A DNA stretch of 56,742 nt from Geminocystis sp. M7585_C2015_104 (GTDB lineage Bacteria > Cyanobacteriota > Cyanobacteriia > Cyanobacteriales > Cyanobacteriaceae), in assembly GCA_015295805.1 (NCBI GenBank), contig DVEF01000068.1, positions 1 to 56,742 of the forward strand. Direction: 5' to 3'. Under the pieces are notes generated by a model. That model made no database searches. It was given only the letters and a program-made list of their open reading frames with translations, and was not told where the DNA came from. Shown here in pieces: positions 19,014 to 46,188 of the stretch (position 1 is its first letter; each line of letters starts with the position of its first letter). The translations under genes and the position numbers were made by a program.

Positions 19014-19509
19014 CCCCAACCTCTTGTTGGTATAGACAAAGTAAATCCCCCTGGGCGCAACAGACACCCCTACACTCCTTTAATTCTACGCTCCTTTTTT
19101 ACATCCCCTTTACATTACCCCTTTATATTTCTTAATGAACTTTACAAAAAGGCCGAACTCCTGATAGGATGGTAGGGGGGACGGCAGGTAAAGAGAGACT
19201 GCCAGGGTCGATCCTGGGCATTATTTAAATGGGATTAAAAATCAATAAAAGCGGAATATAAATTGAAGTTTTAAAGGATGGAATAGTGGGAAAGAAAGGG
19301 TTTTAGAGGGATAGCAGCAGAGCTTATTGAAATTAGATATCAACGATATAAAAATAGAGAAGACAGAGGCCATGGGAAATGTGCCCCACCCCCCTAACTA
19401 GCAAACCCTAACCCCTGTTAATTCTAAATTAATCTGAAATTAACCGAAGATTAATCTTTTCCAGTTAACCTATTAGGCTGACAAGAGTTTCAGTGGGGAT
19501 TCAATTGGA
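19014..19509. other. Intergenic region upstream of the large phosphatase gene
   Basis: No reading frame is convincing in these 496 bases. A short hairpin (CCAAC/GTTGG, 19016-19030) follows the ftsY stop but has no T-run. The last 95 bases contain a regularly spaced TTAA repeat array, listed separately. The middle is AT-rich and featureless to my reading. Confidence 0.5.
19417..19472 (+). promoter_or_regulatory. PhoB/SphR-type box array
   Basis: Five TTAA-centred octamers lie in a row: TTAATTCT (19418), TTAATCTG (19429), TTAACCGA (19440), TTAATCTT (19451) and TTAACCTA (19465). The first four are spaced exactly 11 bp apart, that is, an 8-bp box plus a 3-bp spacer. This is the structure reported for cyanobacterial Pho boxes (tandem PyTTAAPyPyT/A repeats bound by SphR, the PhoB homologue). 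The array ends about 37 bases before the start codon of the phosphatase gene. Binding itself is inferred. Confidence 0.75.
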
Positions 19510-22500
19510 ATGACAATCAGCCTGAGGTTAATAGGGATTCATAATACAGGAGTATTTGGACAGGGAGCCGCAGAGATACCAGCTTATGACCCCTCTACCA
19601 GACGTCTGTTTGTGGTAAATGCTCAGGCGGTGACGGTAGATGTGTTGGACATCTCTAACCCCGCCAACCCAATTAAAATAGGTGAGATTAATGCCTCCAG
19701 ACAGGGGGGTGTGGCCAACAGTGTTGCGGTCAACAATGGCATACTAGCAGTGGCCCTAGAAGCTAGTGTCAAAACAAATCCTGGGAGTGTGGCCTTTTTC
19801 CAGACCAATAGTGACTTCAGTAGTGGCAACGTAACACCACTAAAGGTGGTGACGGTGGGGGCACAACCGGACATGGTGACGTTTACCCCCGACGGGAAAA
19901 AGGTATTGACTGCCAATGAGGGGGAACCAAACAGCTACAATCAGCCAGACTCTGTTGACCCAGAGGGGTCTATTAGCATCATAGACATCAGCAATGGGGT
20001 TGTCAATGCCACTGTTACTACGGTTAATTTTAATGCCTTTGACAGTCGGAAAGATGAACTAATTGCCAGGGGAGTGCGTATATTTGGACCTAATGCCACT
20101 GTTTCTCAGGACTTAGAACCAGAATACATTGCTGTTTCCCCCGATTCCAAGACGGCCTATGTAACTCTACAAGAAAATAATGCTATTGCCGTAGTAGACA
20201 TTGATAGGGCAACGGTAAGAGACATAATACCCCTCGGATTTGTTGACCACAGCACCACCAGAACTAAACTTACTACATATCGGTTTCAAAATTTGCCCCC
20301 CCTTGGCACCACCATAGGAGGACAACAGATTCTACTAGGAGGGTTTTCTGGTTTATGGTTTGAGGGGCGTGGCAAGGATGGCACATTGAAGTTTATAACA
20401 CACACTGACAGGGGACCCAACGCCGAGGCCCAGGGCAGTCTACGTCCTTTCCTACTGCCCAGTTTCGCCCCCGAAATAGTACGTTTCCAGTTGAATCCCA
20501 ACAGCGGCGAGATTACTATCACACAGAGAATCTCACTAAAACGACCAGATGGCACACCCCTGACTGGCTTGCCTAATATTTATATTCCCGGGGGCAACAC
20601 CAACACCCCCTACAATGATGAAATCCCAGTAGACTTGAGAAATAATCCCATTTACCCCCTTGATCCCCTTGGGGCAGACTTAGAGGGGATTGCGGTGGCG
20701 AGGGATGGCACTTTTTGGATGGTGGACGAGTATCGCCCTGCTATTTACCATTTCGACGCCAATGGAACCCTGATAGAGCGTTTTGTGCCAGTGGGGACAA
20801 ATCCCCCAGGAAGTAGCGAGTATGGGATTGAGGCACTGCCAGCAGTTTTGGCTCAACGTCGCCAGAATCGGGGTTTTGAGGCTGTGGCTATAGACAGTGA
20901 CAGAAATAAACTCTACGCCTTTGTCCAAAGTCCTATCCGCAATCCTGTCACCCTAAGTAACACCAACTTAAACAATCTTAATAACATCCGCATTGTTGAA
21001 TTCGACCTGACTACTAAGACTACCACTGCCCAGTATCTCTACAGGTTGGATAACCCCAATTTGGGCACTCCCGGCAATACCAGGGCAGACAAGATTGGCG
21101 ATGCCGTTTATATAGGCAATGGCGAGTTTCTAGTGGTGGAAAGAGACGATGATGCCATTGACAGTGACCCCTTAAGTAACATAGAGAAGAAGGTATATCG
21201 CTTCAGCCTAGCCGGCGCCACAGACATTACCCCCTTTACACAACCCATTGATGTGGGCGGGGGGGTATTCAAAACCGTTGATGAGATGACTCCCAGCGAG
21301 TTGGCTGCCCGGGGGATTAATCTAGTCAAAAAAACCCTCTATGTAGACTTGGCCGCCGTGGGCTACAATGCTGTGGAGAAGGTGGAAGGGTTGGCCTATC
21401 TGGGAGATGGCAAGATTGCTGTAATCAACGATAATGACTTTGGCGTTGCTAACATAACTCTCAAAGGCGATGGAACATTTACTCCAGATCCCAATCCCGA
21501 GCCCGTTTTGTTGGGTATTATTCAAGTACAACCCACCGCCCTGGATGTGAGTGACAGGGATAACAGAATTAACATTGCCAACTGGCCGGTTTTGGGAATG
21601 TTCCAGCCGGATGCCATAGCCACATATCGGGCTGGTGACGGTAAGATATATCTGGTGACGGCCAATGAGGGGGATGCCAGAGAGTGGCCTGGATTTGGAG
21701 AAGAAGTTAGGGTGGCCAGTTTAAGACTGGACGGTAACGCCTTCCCCAATGCCAGTCAGTTACAACGGAATGACCAACTGGGCCGTTTGACTGTTACTAC
21801 AACCCTAGGAGACACCGACAGGGATGGCGATTTTGATAAGCTTTACCTCTTCGGCACTCGTTCTTTCTCGATCTGGGATAGCAATGGCAATTTGGTATTT
21901 GATAGCGGTAGTCAGTTCGAGGAGATTATAGCCCGCCTCATAGCCCAGGGTCAATTGCCCTCCATTGCCTTTAACGCCAACAATGACGATAATAACTCCT
22001 TTGATACCCGTTCCGACAACAAGGGGCCTGAACCGGAGGGGGTTGTCCTTGGCACCATCAGGGACAGAACCTATGCCTTCATAGGACTAGAAAGAATTGG
22101 GGGCGTCATGGTTTATGATATCACTGACCCTCACCACCCCACTTTTGTTCAATACGTCAACAATCGCAATTTTGTGGATGCTCAGGGCAACATACTGCCA
22201 GTAAGACTTCCCGATGGCCGTTCCAACCCCGCAGTGGGGGATTTAGGCCCAGAGGGATTGGCCTTCATCAGCGCCCAGGACAGTCCCACTGGTACTCCTC
22301 TCCTTGTAGTCTCTAATGAAATAAGTGGTACCACCAGTATTTGGGAAGTTGAATTACCTAACTATACACTTCAAATACTGCATGCATCTGACCATGAAGC
22401 GGGAATACCAGCCCTTCAGGACATTATTGGCTTCTCCGCAGTGTTAAATGCCCTGGCTTCCAGATACCCCAATACCATAAAACTGGCCAGTGGGGATTTG

Positions 22501-23202
22501 TTCATACCGGGGCCATTTTTCAATGCTAGTCGGGACTTATATGGACAACCGGGTATTGCCGACGTCCTCGTCCATAACCGTCTAGGTTGGGATGTGGCGG
22601 TATTGGGCAACCATGAGTTTGATGCTGGAACGTCTGCCTTCTACACGTTGCTAGCCCCCAACAGAAATATCCGGGGTGTGGGCATAGATGCCAACAGGGG
22701 ATACCCGGGGGCGGCCTTTCCTTACTTGGCCACCAATTTGGACTATTCCACAGACAGCTCGAGACTGAAAGAGCTGGTGGTACCGGCGGGAGGAGCTCCT
22801 AAACAGGCCAGTTTAACCCAGAGTGTGGTATTGGAAATCGGTGGTGAAAGAATAGGGGTAGTGGGAGCGGTGGTGCCCTATCTCCCACAAATTACCAACA
22901 TTGGGGGCATTACCATGCTTACTAACCCCAATAGTCGCGATGTGGAAGAAAATGCCCGGTTGATTGCTAATAGTGTCCAGCCCTTTGTGGATCAGTTGGT
23001 ATCCCAGGGAATAAATAAAATCATCCTCATGACCCACCTCCAGCAGTTTGAGGTGGAACAGGCTTTAGCAAGAAAACTGCGAAATGTAGATATTGTTATC
23101 GGCGGGGGCTCACACCGGGTCATGGCCAACCCCGATGACGCACTGCGCCAAGATGAAACACAACGCCCCCCCAGTTACTACAGCCCTATCCTCAAAAGTT
23201 GA
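19510..23202 (+). CDS. Giant phosphatase: choice-of-anchor I, phytase-like and 5'-nucleotidase domains (5' part of a frameshifted gene)
   Basis: The 1230-residue product starts with a beta-propeller-like 'choice-of-anchor I' region (LFVVNAQAVTVDVLDIS; PDMVTFTPDGKKVLTANEGE), which is interrupted by an esterase-like phytase domain (about residues 250-640: DRGPNAEAQG, LEGIAVARDGTFWMVDEYRP). It resumes at about 670-940 (VTANEGDAREWPGFGEE). A 5'-nucleotidase metallophosphatase domain begins near residue 952 with HASDHEAG, SGDLFIPG, VLGNHEFDAG, MTHLQQ and GGGSHRV. The frame then ends abruptly, and the missing nucleotidase remainder continues in another frame from 23199. There is no N-terminal signal peptide. 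Pho-type boxes lie just upstream. Likely function is scavenging phosphate from organic esters outside the cytoplasm. Confidence 0.82.
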   Translation: MTISLRLIGIHNTGVFGQGAAEIPAYDPSTRRLFVVNAQAVTVDVLDISNPANPIKIGEINASRQGGVANSVAVNNGILAVALEASVKTNPGSVAFFQTNSDFSSGNVTPLKVVTVGAQPDMVTFTPDGKKVLTANEGEPNSYNQPDSVDPEGSISIIDISNGVVNATVTTVNFNAFDSRKDELIARGVRIFGPNATVSQDLEPEYIAVSPDSKTAYVTLQENNAIAVVDIDRATVRDIIPLGFVDHSTTRTKLTTYRFQNLPPLGTTIGGQQILLGGFSGLWFEGRGKDGTLKFITHTDRGPNAEAQGSLRPFLLPSFAPEIVRFQLNPNSGEITITQRISLKRPDGTPLTGLPNIYIPGGNTNTPYNDEIPVDLRNNPIYPLDPLGADLEGIAVARDGTFWMVDEYRPAIYHFDANGTLIERFVPVGTNPPGSSEYGIEALPAVLAQRRQNRGFEAVAIDSDRNKLYAFVQSPIRNPVTLSNTNLNNLNNIRIVEFDLTTKTTTAQYLYRLDNPNLGTPGNTRADKIGDAVYIGNGEFLVVERDDDAIDSDPLSNIEKKVYRFSLAGATDITPFTQPIDVGGGVFKTVDEMTPSELAARGINLVKKTLYVDLAAVGYNAVEKVEGLAYLGDGKIAVINDNDFGVANITLKGDGTFTPDPNPEPVLLGIIQVQPTALDVSDRDNRINIANWPVLGMFQPDAIATYRAGDGKIYLVTANEGDAREWPGFGEEVRVASLRLDGNAFPNASQLQRNDQLGRLTVTTTLGDTDRDGDFDKLYLFGTRSFSIWDSNGNLVFDSGSQFEEIIARLIAQGQLPSIAFNANNDDNNSFDTRSDNKGPEPEGVVLGTIRDRTYAFIGLERIGGVMVYDITDPHHPTFVQYVNNRNFVDAQGNILPVRLPDGRSNPAVGDLGPEGLAFISAQDSPTGTPLLVVSNEISGTTSIWEVELPNYTLQILHASDHEAGIPALQDIIGFSAVLNALASRYPNTIKLASGDLFIPGPFFNASRDLYGQPGIADVLVHNRLGWDVAVLGNHEFDAGTSAFYTLLAPNRNIRGVGIDANRGYPGAAFPYLATNLDYSTDSSRLKELVVPAGGAPKQASLTQSVVLEIGGERIGVVGAVVPYLPQITNIGGITMLTNPNSRDVEENARLIANSVQPFVDQLVSQGINKIILMTHLQQFEVEQALARKLRNVDIVIGGGSHRVMANPDDALRQDETQRPPSYYSPILKS

Positions 23203-24785
23203 AGGATGCCGATGGCAAGGATATTTATTTGGTCAACACCGGTGCCAACTACCGCTACGTGGGACAACTGGTGGTGGACTTTGACGCCCGGGGCAATGTG
23301 GTCAATGTGAGGGATGAAAGTGGGCCATACCCCACAGATCTTGCTGGTGTAAATCGGTTGTATCCGGAAAATATTACCACTTTTGAACAGGTCAAGGCAA
23401 AAGCAGACCCCCAACTGGTTCAAATCGTGGACAATGTGGGTAATTTTATCAATTCTCTCGACGCTAAAGTATACGGAAATACAGCAGTATTTTTAAATGG
23501 TTTAAGGGAGAGTGTGCGTCGGGAGGAAACGAATCTGGGCAACCTCACTGCTGATGCTAATCTCTGGTATGCCAGAAGGTTTGGCGTGACAGTAGACATT
23601 TCTGTGAAAAACGGGGGGGGGATCCGTGATGCCATAGGACTGTCTTACATCGATGGTGGTACTAACCAGTTGGTTCAATTGCCACCTCCGGCCAACCCCG
23701 CTACTGGCAAGAGAACAGGAGATATTTCTGAACTGGACATAATCAACTCCCTTCGCTTTAACAACAAACTGGTGGTGGCGGACATCTCCGCCCAGGGAAT
23801 TAAAGACTTGGCTGAACACATGGTGGCGGCTTGGACTGCCACTGCTACCCCGGGGCAATTTGGCCAAATAGGTGGCTTCAGCTTTAGTTACGATCCCACT
23901 AAAACCCCAATCCGTTTCCGCCGCGATGCCAACGGTAATGCCATAGCAGTAGAAACCCCTGGCGAGAGAATCCGCAATTTGGTGCTTATCCGTGATGATG
24001 GCAGCAAGGAAGCAATAGTGGTGGATGGAAGATTGGTGGTGCCCCCCGAGCGAACTTACAAGATGGTAATTCTGGACTTTCTGGCCAATGGCGGTGACGG
24101 CTACCCCAGGTTCTATTTCCAAAATGTCACCCCCCTAGAAAACCTTAACCCTCCTTCTATCCCCGACAAAGCCCCTGGTTTGCTGAAAGGTGGTGAACAA
24201 GATGCCTTAGCAGAATACCTGGCAGAGTTTTACCCCAATTCCAGCCGACCTTTCAATCAACCTGACACCCCTATATCCCAAGACACCCGTATCCAGAATC
24301 TTAGTTTCCGTCAGGATACGGTTCTGGCCGGCATAGACAGAGATCGCTTCCTATTTGACACACTAATTTATCGTTTTCGCACCGGCAATGGCACTTATAT
24401 TTATGTGGATGAGGCGGAGAGACAAAGTATTCTCCAGGGCAACTATGGTTTTGTAGAAGAGGGTGTGGCCTTCAAGGCTTCGAAACGGGGGGGCGAAAAC
24501 CTACAGCCCATTTACCGCTTCCGTAGTCTCCTCCGCCCTGGTGCATATCTTTACGCCGGGGGGGAAGAAGTTGAACAAATCCGGCAAAGACACAGAAACT
24601 TATTCGTGGAGGAGGGATTGGCCTTCTACGTGTATGATGGCTCGTCCCAAAAAGGACAAGACATCTACCGTTTTCAAACTATACCCGGGGCCTATATTTT
24701 GGTCAACGAGGCGGAAAAACAAAGCATCCTCGCCGGCAATTTTGGCTTTGTCAATGAGGGGGTTGTTTTTGAGGCTCTGTTTTAA
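23199..24785 (+). CDS. 3' part of the frameshifted phosphatase: 5'-nucleotidase C-terminal domain plus three-repeat tail
   Basis: The first codon of this frame is TTG and in the intact protein would be an internal Leu; a C-run indel joins it to the preceding frame. The first 385 residues continue the 5'-nucleotidase (NTGANYRYVGQLVVDFDARG, ESVRREETNLGNLTADANLW, KNGGGIRDAIG, and a C-terminal substrate-binding region). Residues 388-528 are three tandem repeats of about 45 residues starting IYRFRTGNGTYIYVDEAERQ, PIYRFRS and DIYRFQT, each with an aromatic/Glu pattern ending in a GFVEEGVAF-like block. This resembles the DUF5648-type repeat. The same tail ends the next gene. Alone this fragment lacks most of the metal-binding half and is unlikely to be active. 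Confidence 0.8.
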   Translation: MKDADGKDIYLVNTGANYRYVGQLVVDFDARGNVVNVRDESGPYPTDLAGVNRLYPENITTFEQVKAKADPQLVQIVDNVGNFINSLDAKVYGNTAVFLNGLRESVRREETNLGNLTADANLWYARRFGVTVDISVKNGGGIRDAIGLSYIDGGTNQLVQLPPPANPATGKRTGDISELDIINSLRFNNKLVVADISAQGIKDLAEHMVAAWTATATPGQFGQIGGFSFSYDPTKTPIRFRRDANGNAIAVETPGERIRNLVLIRDDGSKEAIVVDGRLVVPPERTYKMVILDFLANGGDGYPRFYFQNVTPLENLNPPSIPDKAPGLLKGGEQDALAEYLAEFYPNSSRPFNQPDTPISQDTRIQNLSFRQDTVLAGIDRDRFLFDTLIYRFRTGNGTYIYVDEAERQSILQGNYGFVEEGVAFKASKRGGENLQPIYRFRSLLRPGAYLYAGGEEVEQIRQRHRNLFVEEGLAFYVYDGSSQKGQDIYRFQTIPGAYILVNEAEKQSILAGNFGFVNEGVVFEALF

Positions 24786-24873: not shown

Positions 24874-24915
24874 TTTAGCCAAAATTTAATCCAAAAATAA
24901 CCTAATCTTAAATTT
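24874..24915 (+). promoter_or_regulatory. Second, weaker PhoB/SphR-type box array
   Basis: Four octamers with an exact 11-bp period precede the tandem alkaline phosphatase gene: TTAGCCAA (24875), TTAATCCA (24886), ATAACCTA (24897) and TTAAATTT (24908). They are more degenerate than the array at 19418, but the period is identical and the target is again a phosphatase gene. A possible -10 (TATTGT, 24923-24928) follows about 8 bases later and the start codon is 70 bases downstream of the array. Confidence 0.6.
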
Positions 24916-24984: not shown

Positions 24985-27900
24985 ATGAGTGGTAATCACG
25001 TTATTTTCATCCACCCAGACGGCACTAGTCCTTCTCACTTCGGATTTTTGAGATTTGTGGACAAAGGGCCCGATGGCAGAGTGAATTGGGACACCCTGGA
25101 CTATGCCGGTGTCTACCTGGGCCACATGGAGGATCAGTTGGGAGGCACTTCCAACGCCGGCGCGGTAACCCATGCCACCGGTGCCAAGGTGTATGCGGAA
25201 TCCTTTGGCTACGAAAAGGATGGTTCTCCAGTAATCTCCTTGGCAGGCACCACCACCACCATAATGGAGGACGCTGTAAGGGAAAGAAAAGTTACTGCCC
25301 TGTTACAGTCGGGGGCAATATTTGAACCCGGCACGGCGGCCTTTGTGGCAAAAACGAGAGAAATAGAAGTGGATGGGAGAAGAATTGTCCCCCGACGACA
25401 AAATGCAGAAATCGCAAGACAGGTAATCCTCTCCGGAGTGGACTTCATAATGGCGGGGGGACTGTTGAATCTCTTACCCGTAGGCTCCCCCGTACCTGAG
25501 GGGGCAAGAGCCTACGCCACAACTGAACAGTTGGATGCCATCAGCACTAGTCCCCTTGACCGCCCCCGGGAAAACCTTATTCAATTGGCAATAAACAGGG
25601 GGTATACGGTCGTATATACGGAAGACCAACTCAGGTCCTTGTTGACCCTTCCTACCCCCCCTACCAAGGTTTTGGGTGTATTTGCACCAGTTCACACTTT
25701 CAATGATCAGCCGGAAGAGGTATTAGCCCAAAGAAATCTGCCTCTGTACGTGCCCACCGCCCCCACCATAGCCGAGATGCTGGAAATAACCCTGGAGTTG
25801 GCCAAAAAACACCCCAACTTCAACAATGGCTCGCTGTTCGTGGTAGAAGAAGAGGGCACAGACAACTTCGGCAATGCCAATAATGCGGCGGGGACGTTAG
25901 AGGCCCTGCGTCGGGCAGATGATGCCATTGGGGTAGCCCTCAACTTCCTTCAAAGACACCCCAACACCCTAGTCCTCACGGCGGCCGACAGTGATGCTGG
26001 CGGTTTACAGGTAAGAGATCCCTTGCCGGCTGGACAAAATGTGGGCAACATCAACAACAACCCCACTACAGAGGCCCGGAATATACCCCTGGATGGTCAA
26101 AATGGGGTCAACACTAGACCCTTCGTTTCAGCACCCGATGCCCAGGGGAATCGTTATAATTTTGGCATTGCCTGGGCGGGACTTCCCGACTTCTCTGGCA
26201 GCATCGTCGCCAGGGCCGAGGGGTTGAACGCCGATAAACTCCCCTCCACCCTAGATAACACAAAGATATACGAGCTGATGTATGAAACCCTCTTTAACAG
26301 GGAACTAAGATCTCGCAATCCAGATCCTGTGCCGGCGCCTCCTCCCACCAGAAGTACAGGCAACGTCATATTCATACACCCGGATGGCACTAGTCCTTCC
26401 CATTATATGGCCCTCAGAAACATAGACTACGGTCCTGATGGAAGACTGAATTGGGACATGATGACACATGCCGGCGTCTATCTGGGACATATGGCTGACC
26501 AGCTGACGGGCACGTCCAATGCGGGTGCGGTTACTCATGCTACAGGGGTAAAAGTCTTTGCAGAATCCTTTGGCCTCGATGAAAACAACAGGCCTATAAT
26601 GCCGGCTTCCGGTAAGGTGGGGAGGACTATTTTAGAGGAAGCCATCCGTGCCGGTAAGGCCACTGCCCTAATCCAGTCTGGACACTTGGCCGAGCCCGGT
26701 ACTGCCGCCTTTGCCGCTAAAACCACTAACAGGGATGGCAATGAGCTGCGGGCCAGGGAGAAATATGCGGAAATCATTGAGCAGGTAATTCGTTCTGGCA
26801 CAAATGTAATCATGGGCGGAGGCGAGTTGTACATGTTGCCAAGAGGCACTACGGGGTTCCATGTCACCCCAGAAATAGATGCCTCAGAAACCCGCCCTGA
26901 ACGTCGTCCCAGAATCAACCTCATTGAATTAGCCAAGTCCTTGGGGTACACTGTGGTTTACACCAAGGAGCAAATGTTGCAGGTAGTAAACAGCCCCAAT
27001 CCCCCGGAAAAACTATTAGGTGTATTTGCTGCCACCCACACCTTCAATGACAGAACGGAAGAACAACTGCGCCTAGGTACAAGCAACCCCACTCCCCTGT
27101 ATGTGCCAACAGCACCCACCGTGGCCGAAATGCTGGACGCGGCCCTGAAAATACTTAGCAGGGATCCTGATGGCTTTTTTGCGGTGGTGGAAGAAGAAGG
27201 CACAGACAATTTTGGCAACGTAAATAATGCGGTGGGCACCATTGAGGCCATGCGTCGTGCCGATGCGGCTATTGGGGTAGCCATGAAATATGTTAAAAAT
27301 AAAGACCCCAACACCCTAGTCATTACCGCCGCCGACAGTGATGCTGGTGGGTTGCAGGTGTTCCAATTTGTACCCTATGAGCGCCCCTCTGGGAATGCCA
27401 CCACAAGGCCAGAACTAGCAGACCAAGAAAGTGCTGTACCATTTATCAACGTTAACAGAACAACTGAGAACAGAAACAGGGTATTTTTAGACGGCCAGAA
27501 TGGTAGTCAGGTCACCCCTTGGATTCCCTTTAAGGCCAAAGACAGTTTAGATGGGCCAATGGGCAATTTTGGAATAGTTTGGGCTGGCACCCCTGACTTC
27601 CCGGGCGGCCTTGTGGCCAAAACATATGGTTTGAATGCTGACAAGTTGCCCTCTACCCTGGATAATACTGATATATACAAGATAATGTACGAAACCCTCT
27701 TTGGTGTCTCCCCCGACTCTGTCAAGCCCTACTATGACAAGTTAACTGACCCCATATACCGTTTCCGCACTGGCAATGGCACCTACCTGTATGTGGACGA
27801 GGCGGAAAAACAAGCCATTATGAACAACAACCCCTTTGGTTTTGTCTTTGAAGGGGAAGCCTTCAAGGCCTCTAAACGTCCTGGCGCCAACATGGAGCCC

Positions 27901-28176
27901 ATATATCGTTTCCGCAACCGGAATCTGAGGGGTGGTTATATATATGTAGGAGAAGAGGAACGTCAATCCATTTTGCGCAACCACAGAGACGTTTTTGTGG
28001 AAGAAGGGATAGCCTTTTATGTGTATGGTGCTGACAGTGGGATTGCGGATAAAATCTACCGTATCCAAACCCGGCCCGGGGCCTATATGTTAGTGCATGA
28101 GGGGGAAAAACAAAGCATTCTTGCCAGTAATTTAGGCTTTGTCAATGAAGGAGTGGCCTTTGAAACGGTAGCATAA
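24985..28176 (+). CDS. Tandem double alkaline phosphatase with three-repeat C-terminal tail, 1063 aa
   Basis: Two alkaline-phosphatase domains lie head to tail, at residues about 4-445 and 457-910. Each opens with VIFIHPDGTSPSH and has TSNAGAVTHATG(A/V)K, where the Ser aligns with the PhoA nucleophile, VVEEEGTDNFGN and TAADSDAGGLQV. Compared with E. coli PhoA, D51, S102, E322, D327 and D369 are kept, but the zinc ligands H331, H370 and H412 appear as Asn, Ser and Asn in both copies (hand alignment). Residues 921-1063 form the same three-repeat tail as the upstream phosphatase. No signal peptide or membrane segment is seen. It is 199 bases downstream of the frameshifted phosphatase, same strand, with its own Pho-type box array. 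Hydrolysis of phosphate monoesters is likely but unproven given the altered metal site. Confidence 0.85.
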   Translation: MSGNHVIFIHPDGTSPSHFGFLRFVDKGPDGRVNWDTLDYAGVYLGHMEDQLGGTSNAGAVTHATGAKVYAESFGYEKDGSPVISLAGTTTTIMEDAVRERKVTALLQSGAIFEPGTAAFVAKTREIEVDGRRIVPRRQNAEIARQVILSGVDFIMAGGLLNLLPVGSPVPEGARAYATTEQLDAISTSPLDRPRENLIQLAINRGYTVVYTEDQLRSLLTLPTPPTKVLGVFAPVHTFNDQPEEVLAQRNLPLYVPTAPTIAEMLEITLELAKKHPNFNNGSLFVVEEEGTDNFGNANNAAGTLEALRRADDAIGVALNFLQRHPNTLVLTAADSDAGGLQVRDPLPAGQNVGNINNNPTTEARNIPLDGQNGVNTRPFVSAPDAQGNRYNFGIAWAGLPDFSGSIVARAEGLNADKLPSTLDNTKIYELMYETLFNRELRSRNPDPVPAPPPTRSTGNVIFIHPDGTSPSHYMALRNIDYGPDGRLNWDMMTHAGVYLGHMADQLTGTSNAGAVTHATGVKVFAESFGLDENNRPIMPASGKVGRTILEEAIRAGKATALIQSGHLAEPGTAAFAAKTTNRDGNELRAREKYAEIIEQVIRSGTNVIMGGGELYMLPRGTTGFHVTPEIDASETRPERRPRINLIELAKSLGYTVVYTKEQMLQVVNSPNPPEKLLGVFAATHTFNDRTEEQLRLGTSNPTPLYVPTAPTVAEMLDAALKILSRDPDGFFAVVEEEGTDNFGNVNNAVGTIEAMRRADAAIGVAMKYVKNKDPNTLVITAADSDAGGLQVFQFVPYERPSGNATTRPELADQESAVPFINVNRTTENRNRVFLDGQNGSQVTPWIPFKAKDSLDGPMGNFGIVWAGTPDFPGGLVAKTYGLNADKLPSTLDNTDIYKIMYETLFGVSPDSVKPYYDKLTDPIYRFRTGNGTYLYVDEAEKQAIMNNNPFGFVFEGEAFKASKRPGANMEPIYRFRNRNLRGGYIYVGEEERQSILRNHRDVFVEEGIAFYVYGADSGIADKIYRIQTRPGAYMLVHEGEKQSILASNLGFVNEGVAFETVA

Positions 28177-45980: not shown

Positions 45981-46188
45981 TAGTCAAGTCACTCCCACAA
46001 CCACAATTTTTTCCCCTCATTGTACTATTTGCCCTCCCTATCCCGTACTGCTTCATTGCAATCCCCCACCCTGAAAAGAATGTAACAAAAGTTTACAATA
46101 ATTTCTCATATGGGAAGCAGTTTTAAGAGAAAATAATTAGGGTGTGATTAAGACCTGGAAAATAGGAAAATATAATAGTTTGAGGGAT

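Follow-up and report, generated by a model that had tools for sequence, protein, structure and literature searches.

What kind of active site does a PhoA-type alkaline phosphatase hold once every histidine that binds zinc in the classical enzyme has been replaced? The question is raised by an open reading frame (ORF) of the cyanobacterium Geminocystis sp. M7585_C2015_104, which lies in a stretch of 56,742 nucleotides (contig DVEF01000068.1) that was analysed as a whole and is called the window below. PhoA is the textbook two-zinc enzyme. The ORF, which opens with ATG (Table 1), codes for a product that matches the alkaline phosphatase family PF00245 in two stretches (whole-protein E = 1.3e-60; 206 bits against a curated cut-off of 24.4), bearing out the tandem of two such domains reported in a preliminary description of the locus made from the sequence alone. 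We find that the histidine-less form which it exemplifies is a conserved family and not a product of decay. Pfam also gives PF18885 (DUF5648) at the C-terminus and a weak match of about 50 residues to the metalloenzyme superfamily profile PF01676, and no signal peptide was seen by eye at the N-terminus, domain 1 beginning at the first residues. Both PF00245 matches of the genome (2.82 Mb, 108 contigs, 97% complete) fall within this ORF; profile searches of the same genome gave one PhoX-family match elsewhere and no match to PhoD.

Residue equivalences with E. coli PhoA were read from an alignment in which canonical enzymes of Bacillota, Actinomycetota, Pseudomonadota and cyanobacteria served as a bridge. 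The canonical comparison set comprised 21 proteins (14 PF00245 members of cyanobacteria and, counting that of E. coli, seven of other bacteria), and the family was represented by 18 rows: two from the window, four from loci L135-L143 and every twelfth of the 143 family domains described below. Residue roles, mature numbering and the division between the M1 and M2 sites are those that we take to hold for PhoA. E. coli PhoA is reported to retain some activity when one His at a time is mutated. In this alignment (domain 1/domain 2) the nucleophile S102 corresponds to S56/S511, D51 to D12/D467, R166 to R137/R591, E322 to E288/E736, D327 to D293/D741 and D369 to D335/D784. Of the zinc-binding histidines, H331 is replaced by asparagine (N297/N745), H370 by serine (S336/S785) and H412 most likely by aspartate (D402/D871) in both copies. 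The Mg-site residues D153 and T155 have become Glu (E114/E570) and Gly (G116/G572), and next to the nucleophile D101 is replaced by Thr and A103 by Asn. The preliminary description had given the three replacements as Asn, Ser and Asn, of which the former two stand in both copies and the last does not; its view that the Asp and Glu ligands and the nucleophilic serine are kept holds for D51, D327, D369, E322 and the serine, and is incomplete in that the Mg site is altered. The aspartate ligands of the zinc sites, E322, the serine and the arginine are thus retained, and an oxygen-bearing side chain has taken the place of each histidine ligand. Two other assignments were tried and rejected. The Asn considered for H412 belongs to an NFG stretch before a conserved Trp; other family rows have Pro, Gln or Gly in its place, and none of the alignments gives an invariant Asn at H412. 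An apparent loss of R166, seen without the bridging set, was owing to an insertion in the tandem forms, and the residue is kept once the alignment is bridged.

The family was collected by scanning a collection of 84,980 species with the patterns EEE[GA][TS]DN[FM] and HPDG[TA]S[PA][SA]H, and the counts below refer to the best 80 of 381 related stretches, which make up 79 loci. These patterns favour D51, E322 and D327; the replaced histidine positions, S102, R166 and D369 lie outside them. With incomplete domains left out, the 79 loci yielded 143 whole domains, in 81 ORFs, and the two of the window brought the set to 145. All 145 have Asn for H331, Ser for H370 and Asp at or next to H412, as well as Glu for D153 and Gly for T155; the equivalents of S102, R166, E322, D327 and D369 are likewise kept in every domain, and that of D51 in 144, with one gap. 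Chance is excluded as the source of the shared Asn, Ser and Asp, because they are common to the whole set. In the bridged alignment all three histidines are present in 21/21 canonical enzymes and absent from 18/18 family rows. PhoA position 153 is itself variable, with His in 13 of the 14 canonical cyanobacterial rows; the combination of Glu with Gly at 155 occurs in 18/18 family rows. All 11 site positions fall among the 92 near-invariant ones of 460, for which a random draw would give 1.2e-8, a guide only, as the 11 were picked after seeing the alignment and three of them lie within the scan patterns.

An earlier set from a protein search had the same Asn and Ser in 38/38 domains, the window included; this search found matches in 29 of 386 cyanobacterial genomes, one of which is canonical with all histidines (G041) and two of which are fragments (G385, G070). 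A PF00245 family search, from which 30 places among more places listed were made into loci, yielded 14 canonical and 15 histidine-less members among the 29 loci L119-L147, the two groups standing well apart in both profile scores. In the pattern scan, Dolichospermum, Calothrix and Fischerella are among the genera that carry the form. Cyanobacterial titles are attached to 77 of the 79 loci; the other two are metagenome-assembled genomes labelled Chloroflexaceae and Gracilibacteria. The earlier suggestion that the change is functional and not a matter of decay is upheld, the replacements having been kept by selection across the 145 domains. As a separate observation, the tandem relatives L020, L022, L095 and L110 are interrupted or cut within a domain, and here the gene may be decaying in some lineages, or the assemblies may be in error.

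The order of events was approached with a tree (LG+G4, no mixture model, metal-site columns kept in, some canonical branches long) of 62 domains. Its histidine-less rows came from the window, L028, L030, 11 single domains and 17 of the 63 whole tandems; 12 of the 21 canonical enzymes completed the set and were chosen as the root. The 50 histidine-less rows form one clade, on a 100/100 branch, against the 12 canonical rows. Inside it the main tandem group splits into separate clades of 16 first domains (100/98) and 16 second domains (99/99), which points to one old duplication after the loss of the histidines. The substitutions are therefore older than the duplication, as the preliminary description had argued from the two copies alone. 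The domain pairs of L111 and of L116/L028 lie outside the main tandem clades, and the starred branches force at least four changes each of the first-domain (d1) and second-domain (d2) labels; duplication has probably happened more than once. The distribution is patchy, by loss or by horizontal gain: a genome of the same genus (G151) and five other genomes of the same family among those listed gave no match in either the protein or the PF00245 search. Alkaline-phosphatase-like stretches of 26-28% identity also occur in four unannotated records filed under phages (OR844989, OR849936, OR846605 and PQ520363), which are possibly host DNA.

AlphaFold2 models were made of the tandem (residues 1-916; 42 sequences, namely 41 of the 63 whole tandem relatives and the window) and of domain 2 alone (residues 456-912; 43 of the 143 domains and the window's two). 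For the tandem, a mean predicted local distance difference test (pLDDT) of 91.8 and a predicted template modelling score (pTM) of 0.92 make the predicted placement of one domain against the other a confident one. The tandem model superposes on the Vibrio enzyme 7qp8_A (Z 45.2, root-mean-square deviation 3.7, 370 residues aligned) and on E. coli 1kh5 (Z 43.6, deviation 2.4, 362 aligned), with a best Foldseek E of 3.9e-26, and domain 2 alone (pLDDT 86.5, pTM 0.91) on E. coli 1khj_A (Z 39.7, deviation 2.6, 353 aligned). For either model the 50 closest solved entries listed, with Z from 36 to 45, are all alkaline phosphatases; sulfatases are not among these 50, which excludes nothing. The three matches from a viral fold library (E up to 0.001) were all weak, with template modelling scores of at most 0.33 of the query. 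Each predicted model has the alkaline phosphatase fold; the metal ligands, for which a superposition on PhoA had been proposed, were read by alignment. Ten-residue blocks around the nucleophile and D871 have mean pLDDT values of 53 and 59 in the single-domain model, and of 86 to 91 and 84 to 85, respectively, in the tandem model; the better-modelled loops would fit a mutual support of the two halves.

The genomic setting suggests a role in phosphate starvation. The box bound by SphR has been given as CTTAACCT (PMC1906773), and we scored three 8-mers with 3-bp linkers (24 positions) against the relaxed consensus YTTAAYYW. Five sites scoring at least 20 occur in the window, at three places, where about 1.1 would be expected. 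Two of the places are the repeats upstream of the tandem gene and the array upstream of its neighbour (Table 1); the third is at 46163. A scan with a two-repeat pattern found one site, at 46134, away from the gene in a region that also scores 20, and no known phosphate gene lies near it among those checked. A score of at least 20 is reached upstream of 21/64 tandem relatives as against 8/382 other ORFs and 29/780 Markov shuffles (these two controls replaced an earlier one of random stretches), contrasts that are indicative, as the relatives are not independent.

The neighbour upstream consists of two ORFs which together code for choice-of-anchor I, phytase-like and 5'-nucleotidase regions, and relatives of it are present in 8/79 loci. 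These two ORFs share four bases and lie in different frames, whereas in relatives L088-L090 the coordinates of the two halves put them in one frame; the split may be genuine or may come from a sequencing error. In two of the eight loci the alkaline phosphatase is itself fused in one frame with further phosphatase domains: in L111 (492-9059) and L114 (5980-13254; Hydrococcus rivularis) chains of at least 2425 residues join it, in two copies and one copy respectively, to GDPD, phytase-like, exonuclease/phosphatase and 5'-nucleotidase domains. The window holds no tRNA gene by tRNA scan.

Signals of export differ between the forms. A lipobox-like Cys is present in 11/11 whole single-domain ORFs of the 79 loci (nine by pattern and two, L106 and L112, on inspection by eye; L070, the twelfth ORF in the set, is a split tandem and is not counted). 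The tandem relatives start their first domain within about 35 residues of the open-frame start and have no evident signal peptide by eye; 42 of their 64 C-termini longer than 60 residues end in an RTX-like motif, and PF00353 is above its cut-off in 4/7 of those scanned. RTX-type ends are read here in the light of type I secretion. The window protein ends in DUF5648, a profile matched at E up to 0.01 by 0/64 C-termini of the relatives. The second neighbour ORF likewise ends in this domain (24375-24776). DUF5648 ends six ORFs of the genome (L003-L006 and the window's two), which include, by eye, a CAP-like protein and repeat-rich exported-looking proteins. Inspection by eye showed no signal peptide in either phosphatase gene of the window or in the CAP-like gene, so that the domain may serve at the C-terminus, in place of RTX, as a module for export or for the surface. 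Taken together, the Pho-box-like repeats, the lipoprotein and RTX-type signals of the relatives and the phosphatase fusions point to an exported enzyme of phosphate starvation.

Table 1. Features of the window, with position, strand and basis of each assignment
Feature	Position	Strand	Basis
Tandem His-less alkaline phosphatase, 1063 aa	24985..28176	+	ORF; two PF00245 stretches and PF18885
Alkaline phosphatase domain 1, aa 1-452	24985..26340	+	profile match, alignments
Domain 1 predicted site residues: D12, S56, E114, R137, E288, D293, N297, D335, S336, D402			
Codon N297, equivalent to PhoA His331, domain 1	25873..25875	+	bridged alignment
Codon S336, equivalent to PhoA His370, domain 1	25990..25992	+	bridged alignment
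Codon D402, most likely equivalent to PhoA His412, domain 1	26188..26190	+	bridged alignment; one-column ambiguity
Alkaline phosphatase domain 2, aa 456-916	26350..27732	+	profile match, alignments, structure models
Domain 2 predicted site residues: D467, S511, E570, R591, E736, D741, N745, D784, S785, D871			
Codon N745, equivalent to PhoA His331, domain 2	27217..27219	+	bridged alignment
Codon S785, equivalent to PhoA His370, domain 2	27337..27339	+	bridged alignment
Codon D871, most likely equivalent to PhoA His412, domain 2	27595..27597	+	bridged alignment; one-column ambiguity
C-terminal DUF5648 (PF18885), possible export or surface module	27757..28164	+	Pfam match, aa 925-1060
Pho-box-like triple repeat	24885..24914	+	20/24 positions of relaxed consensus
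Pho-box-like repeat array upstream of neighbouring phosphatase gene	19417..19457	+	19 and 20/24 on +; 21/24 on -
Neighbour choice-of-anchor I / phytase-like / 5'-nucleotidase gene	19510..24785	+	two ORFs, 19510-23202 and 23199-24785

We consider it probable that the protein is an active phosphatase with a serine nucleophile, that it holds hard divalent metals in an all-oxygen site, that the tandem is a built-in dimer, and that it is exported and serves in phosphate starvation. Extracellular organic phosphate esters would then be the source from which this cyanobacterial PhoA-type subfamily scavenges phosphate. Its M2 site would be formed by the equivalents of D51, D369, Ser370 and Ser102, and its M1 site by those of D327, Asn331 and Asp412, both all-oxygen and occupied by hard divalent cations, most likely Ca2+ or Mg2+/Mn2+. 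The serine would attack the phosphate to give a phosphoseryl intermediate, followed by release through water, as in PhoA, and the two domains would be the intramolecular counterpart of the PhoA homodimer. The tandem form would be exported by its C-terminal signal (RTX-type in the relatives, DUF5648 in the window protein), the single-domain relatives would be lipoproteins or carry a Sec-like signal, and expression would rise on phosphate starvation via SphR. A metal site unlike the classical two-zinc one, which the preliminary description had suggested with Ca or Mg in mind, is the most economical reading, and has a precedent in the Ca-binding sulfatases of the same superfamily. In sulfatases a single Ca2+ is held by three Asp and one Asn (PMC11677397, PMC5066984), at the place where the zinc of ENPPs is bound by two Asp, one His and the nucleophile (PMC11677397). 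We take this place to be the M2 site of PhoA (D51, D369, H370 and S102). For our family a second cation, and not the single-metal plan of sulfatases, is suggested by the retained D327 together with the newly gained Asp of M1. The wider proposition, that this is a widespread zinc-independent branch of PhoA with an all-oxygen multi-metal (Ca2+/Mg2+) site and a dimer built into one secreted chain by repeated duplication, which would provide cyanobacteria with a phosphate-scavenging enzyme that requires neither zinc nor iron, is more tentative, and we hold it at a little under an even chance.

Several observations weigh against parts of this reading. MAFFT without the bridging sequences and hhalign place a Phe at H412, with the invariant Asp one column before; the Asp is preferred because it is found in 145/145 domains while the column with Phe is mixed (F 125, N 11, V 7, Y 2), and because it lies five residues ahead of the Leu at which the next strand (876-882 in the model) begins, the same spacing as between His412 and Leu417 in PhoA. 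The third (Mg) site is affected as well, by the replacements of D153 and T155, and the number of metals may differ accordingly. An Asn residue alone does not fix the metal, since the Asn ligand of sulfatases is described as poorly conserved, with His and Gln as common alternatives (PMC5066984). For the dimer, the pLDDT contrast between the tandem and single-domain models reflects different input alignments and gives weak support. As to regulation, a Pho-box score of 20 is reached by only 2/14 single-domain relatives (L070, a split tandem, stands twice among these entries, and the fusion L114 is another of them), and the divergent single-domain L031 and L032 have no Pho-box-like site (best 13 and 15/24). 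These two also have no lipobox, their N-termini being Sec-like by eye. Among the seven tandem relatives scanned for PF00353, L045 and L093 have no match and L038 is below the cut-off; the window protein has no RTX match, and the role of its DUF5648 is putative. Finally, three other histidines, H465, H502 and H518 of domain 2 (H10, H47 and H63 in domain 1), are present in 144, 143 and 145 of the 145 family domains and could in principle bind a metal.

These histidines are the basis of a reading in which the protein is a zinc enzyme after all, with H465, H502 and H518 reaching the metal site and replacing the lost ligands. Their conservation speaks for it, but E. coli PhoA has Ile49, Tyr87 and Trp109 at the three columns, which we take not to be metal ligands there, and the fold is the same; at the metal positions themselves the alignment places no other histidine. 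We regard a restored zinc site as very unlikely. Hardly less doubtful is a change of specificity, by which the same fold with an altered metal site would act as a phosphodiesterase, a sulfatase or a phosphonate-ester hydrolase. Ca-binding sulfatases do form an all-oxygen branch of the superfamily (PMC5066984, PMC11677397), the PhoA-site residues D101, D153 and T155 are altered, and the fusions include GDPD and nucleotidase partners; yet the Ser, R166 and E322 are as in PhoA, the 50 closest structures listed are alkaline phosphatases, and Pfam gives no sulfatase family up to E = 0.001.

The alternative that the protein has lost hydrolysis along with its zinc ligands, and is a pseudo-enzyme that binds phosphate or phosphoesters, had also been raised in the preliminary description. 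Catalytically dead enzymes commonly arise by losing metal ligands, and three histidine ligands and two Mg-site residues are replaced throughout the 145 domains. The nucleophilic serine and the equivalent of R166 are, however, just as invariant, as are the replacing residues themselves, and the domain is fused with other phosphatase domains at two loci; such a binding protein is improbable, if a shade less so than the two preceding alternatives. The active, metal-rebuilt phosphatase remains the reading that we prefer.

The choice of phosphatase open to a cyanobacterium is believed to depend on its supply of metals. If the preferred reading is true, annotation as PhoA-type could not be read as a zinc demand in genera with this branch, such as Dolichospermum, Calothrix and Fischerella, and a PhoA branch that has kept the fold, the Ser and the Arg but swapped all three histidines would be a natural test of how far a metal site can be rebuilt without loss of catalysis. 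In the literature searched (titles and starts of abstracts, most subscription journals missing) we found no account of a histidine-less PF00245 family or of tandem alkaline phosphatase domains, and no characterised family with this exact motif set; cyanobacterial alkaline phosphatases of an uncharacterised type are mentioned in one source (PMC1906773).

Among known phosphatases and their relatives, PhoX, a phosphatase of cyanobacteria and other bacteria, needs calcium with iron, as does Psip1 (PMC11098088). PhoX (PF05787) is a different Pfam family, and neither it nor PhoD (PF09423) is among the Pfam matches of the window protein. Atypical PhoA (PhoAaty) was first identified as a phosphatase in freshwater Synechococcus (PMC11098088), and is the form of PCC 7942 and of dinoflagellates. 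The purified enzyme of Amphidinium carterae works with Ca2+, Mg2+ or Mn2+ and not with Zn2+ (PMC6723241), so these cations can serve a phosphatase of phosphate starvation. PhoAaty is described as without sequence similarity to classical PhoA (PMC11098088, PMC4548154); the window protein, which matches PF00245 at 1.3e-60, is set apart from it by that description. The formylglycine sulfatases are alike in belonging to the same superfamily and in holding their Ca2+ with oxygen ligands only, and unlike in having a single metal and a formylglycine nucleophile (PMC11677397, PMC5066984); the window protein has no sulfatase match in Pfam at E up to 0.001. PhoA of E. coli and Vibrio shares with it the fold, the serine nucleophile, R166, D51, E322, D327 and D369, and differs in the histidines at 331, 370 and 412, in the residues at 153 and 155, in having one domain per chain where the window protein has two, and in the N-terminal signal that was not seen by eye in the latter. 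Hence, the fold and catalytic core are those already known from PhoA, and what is new is the metal site.

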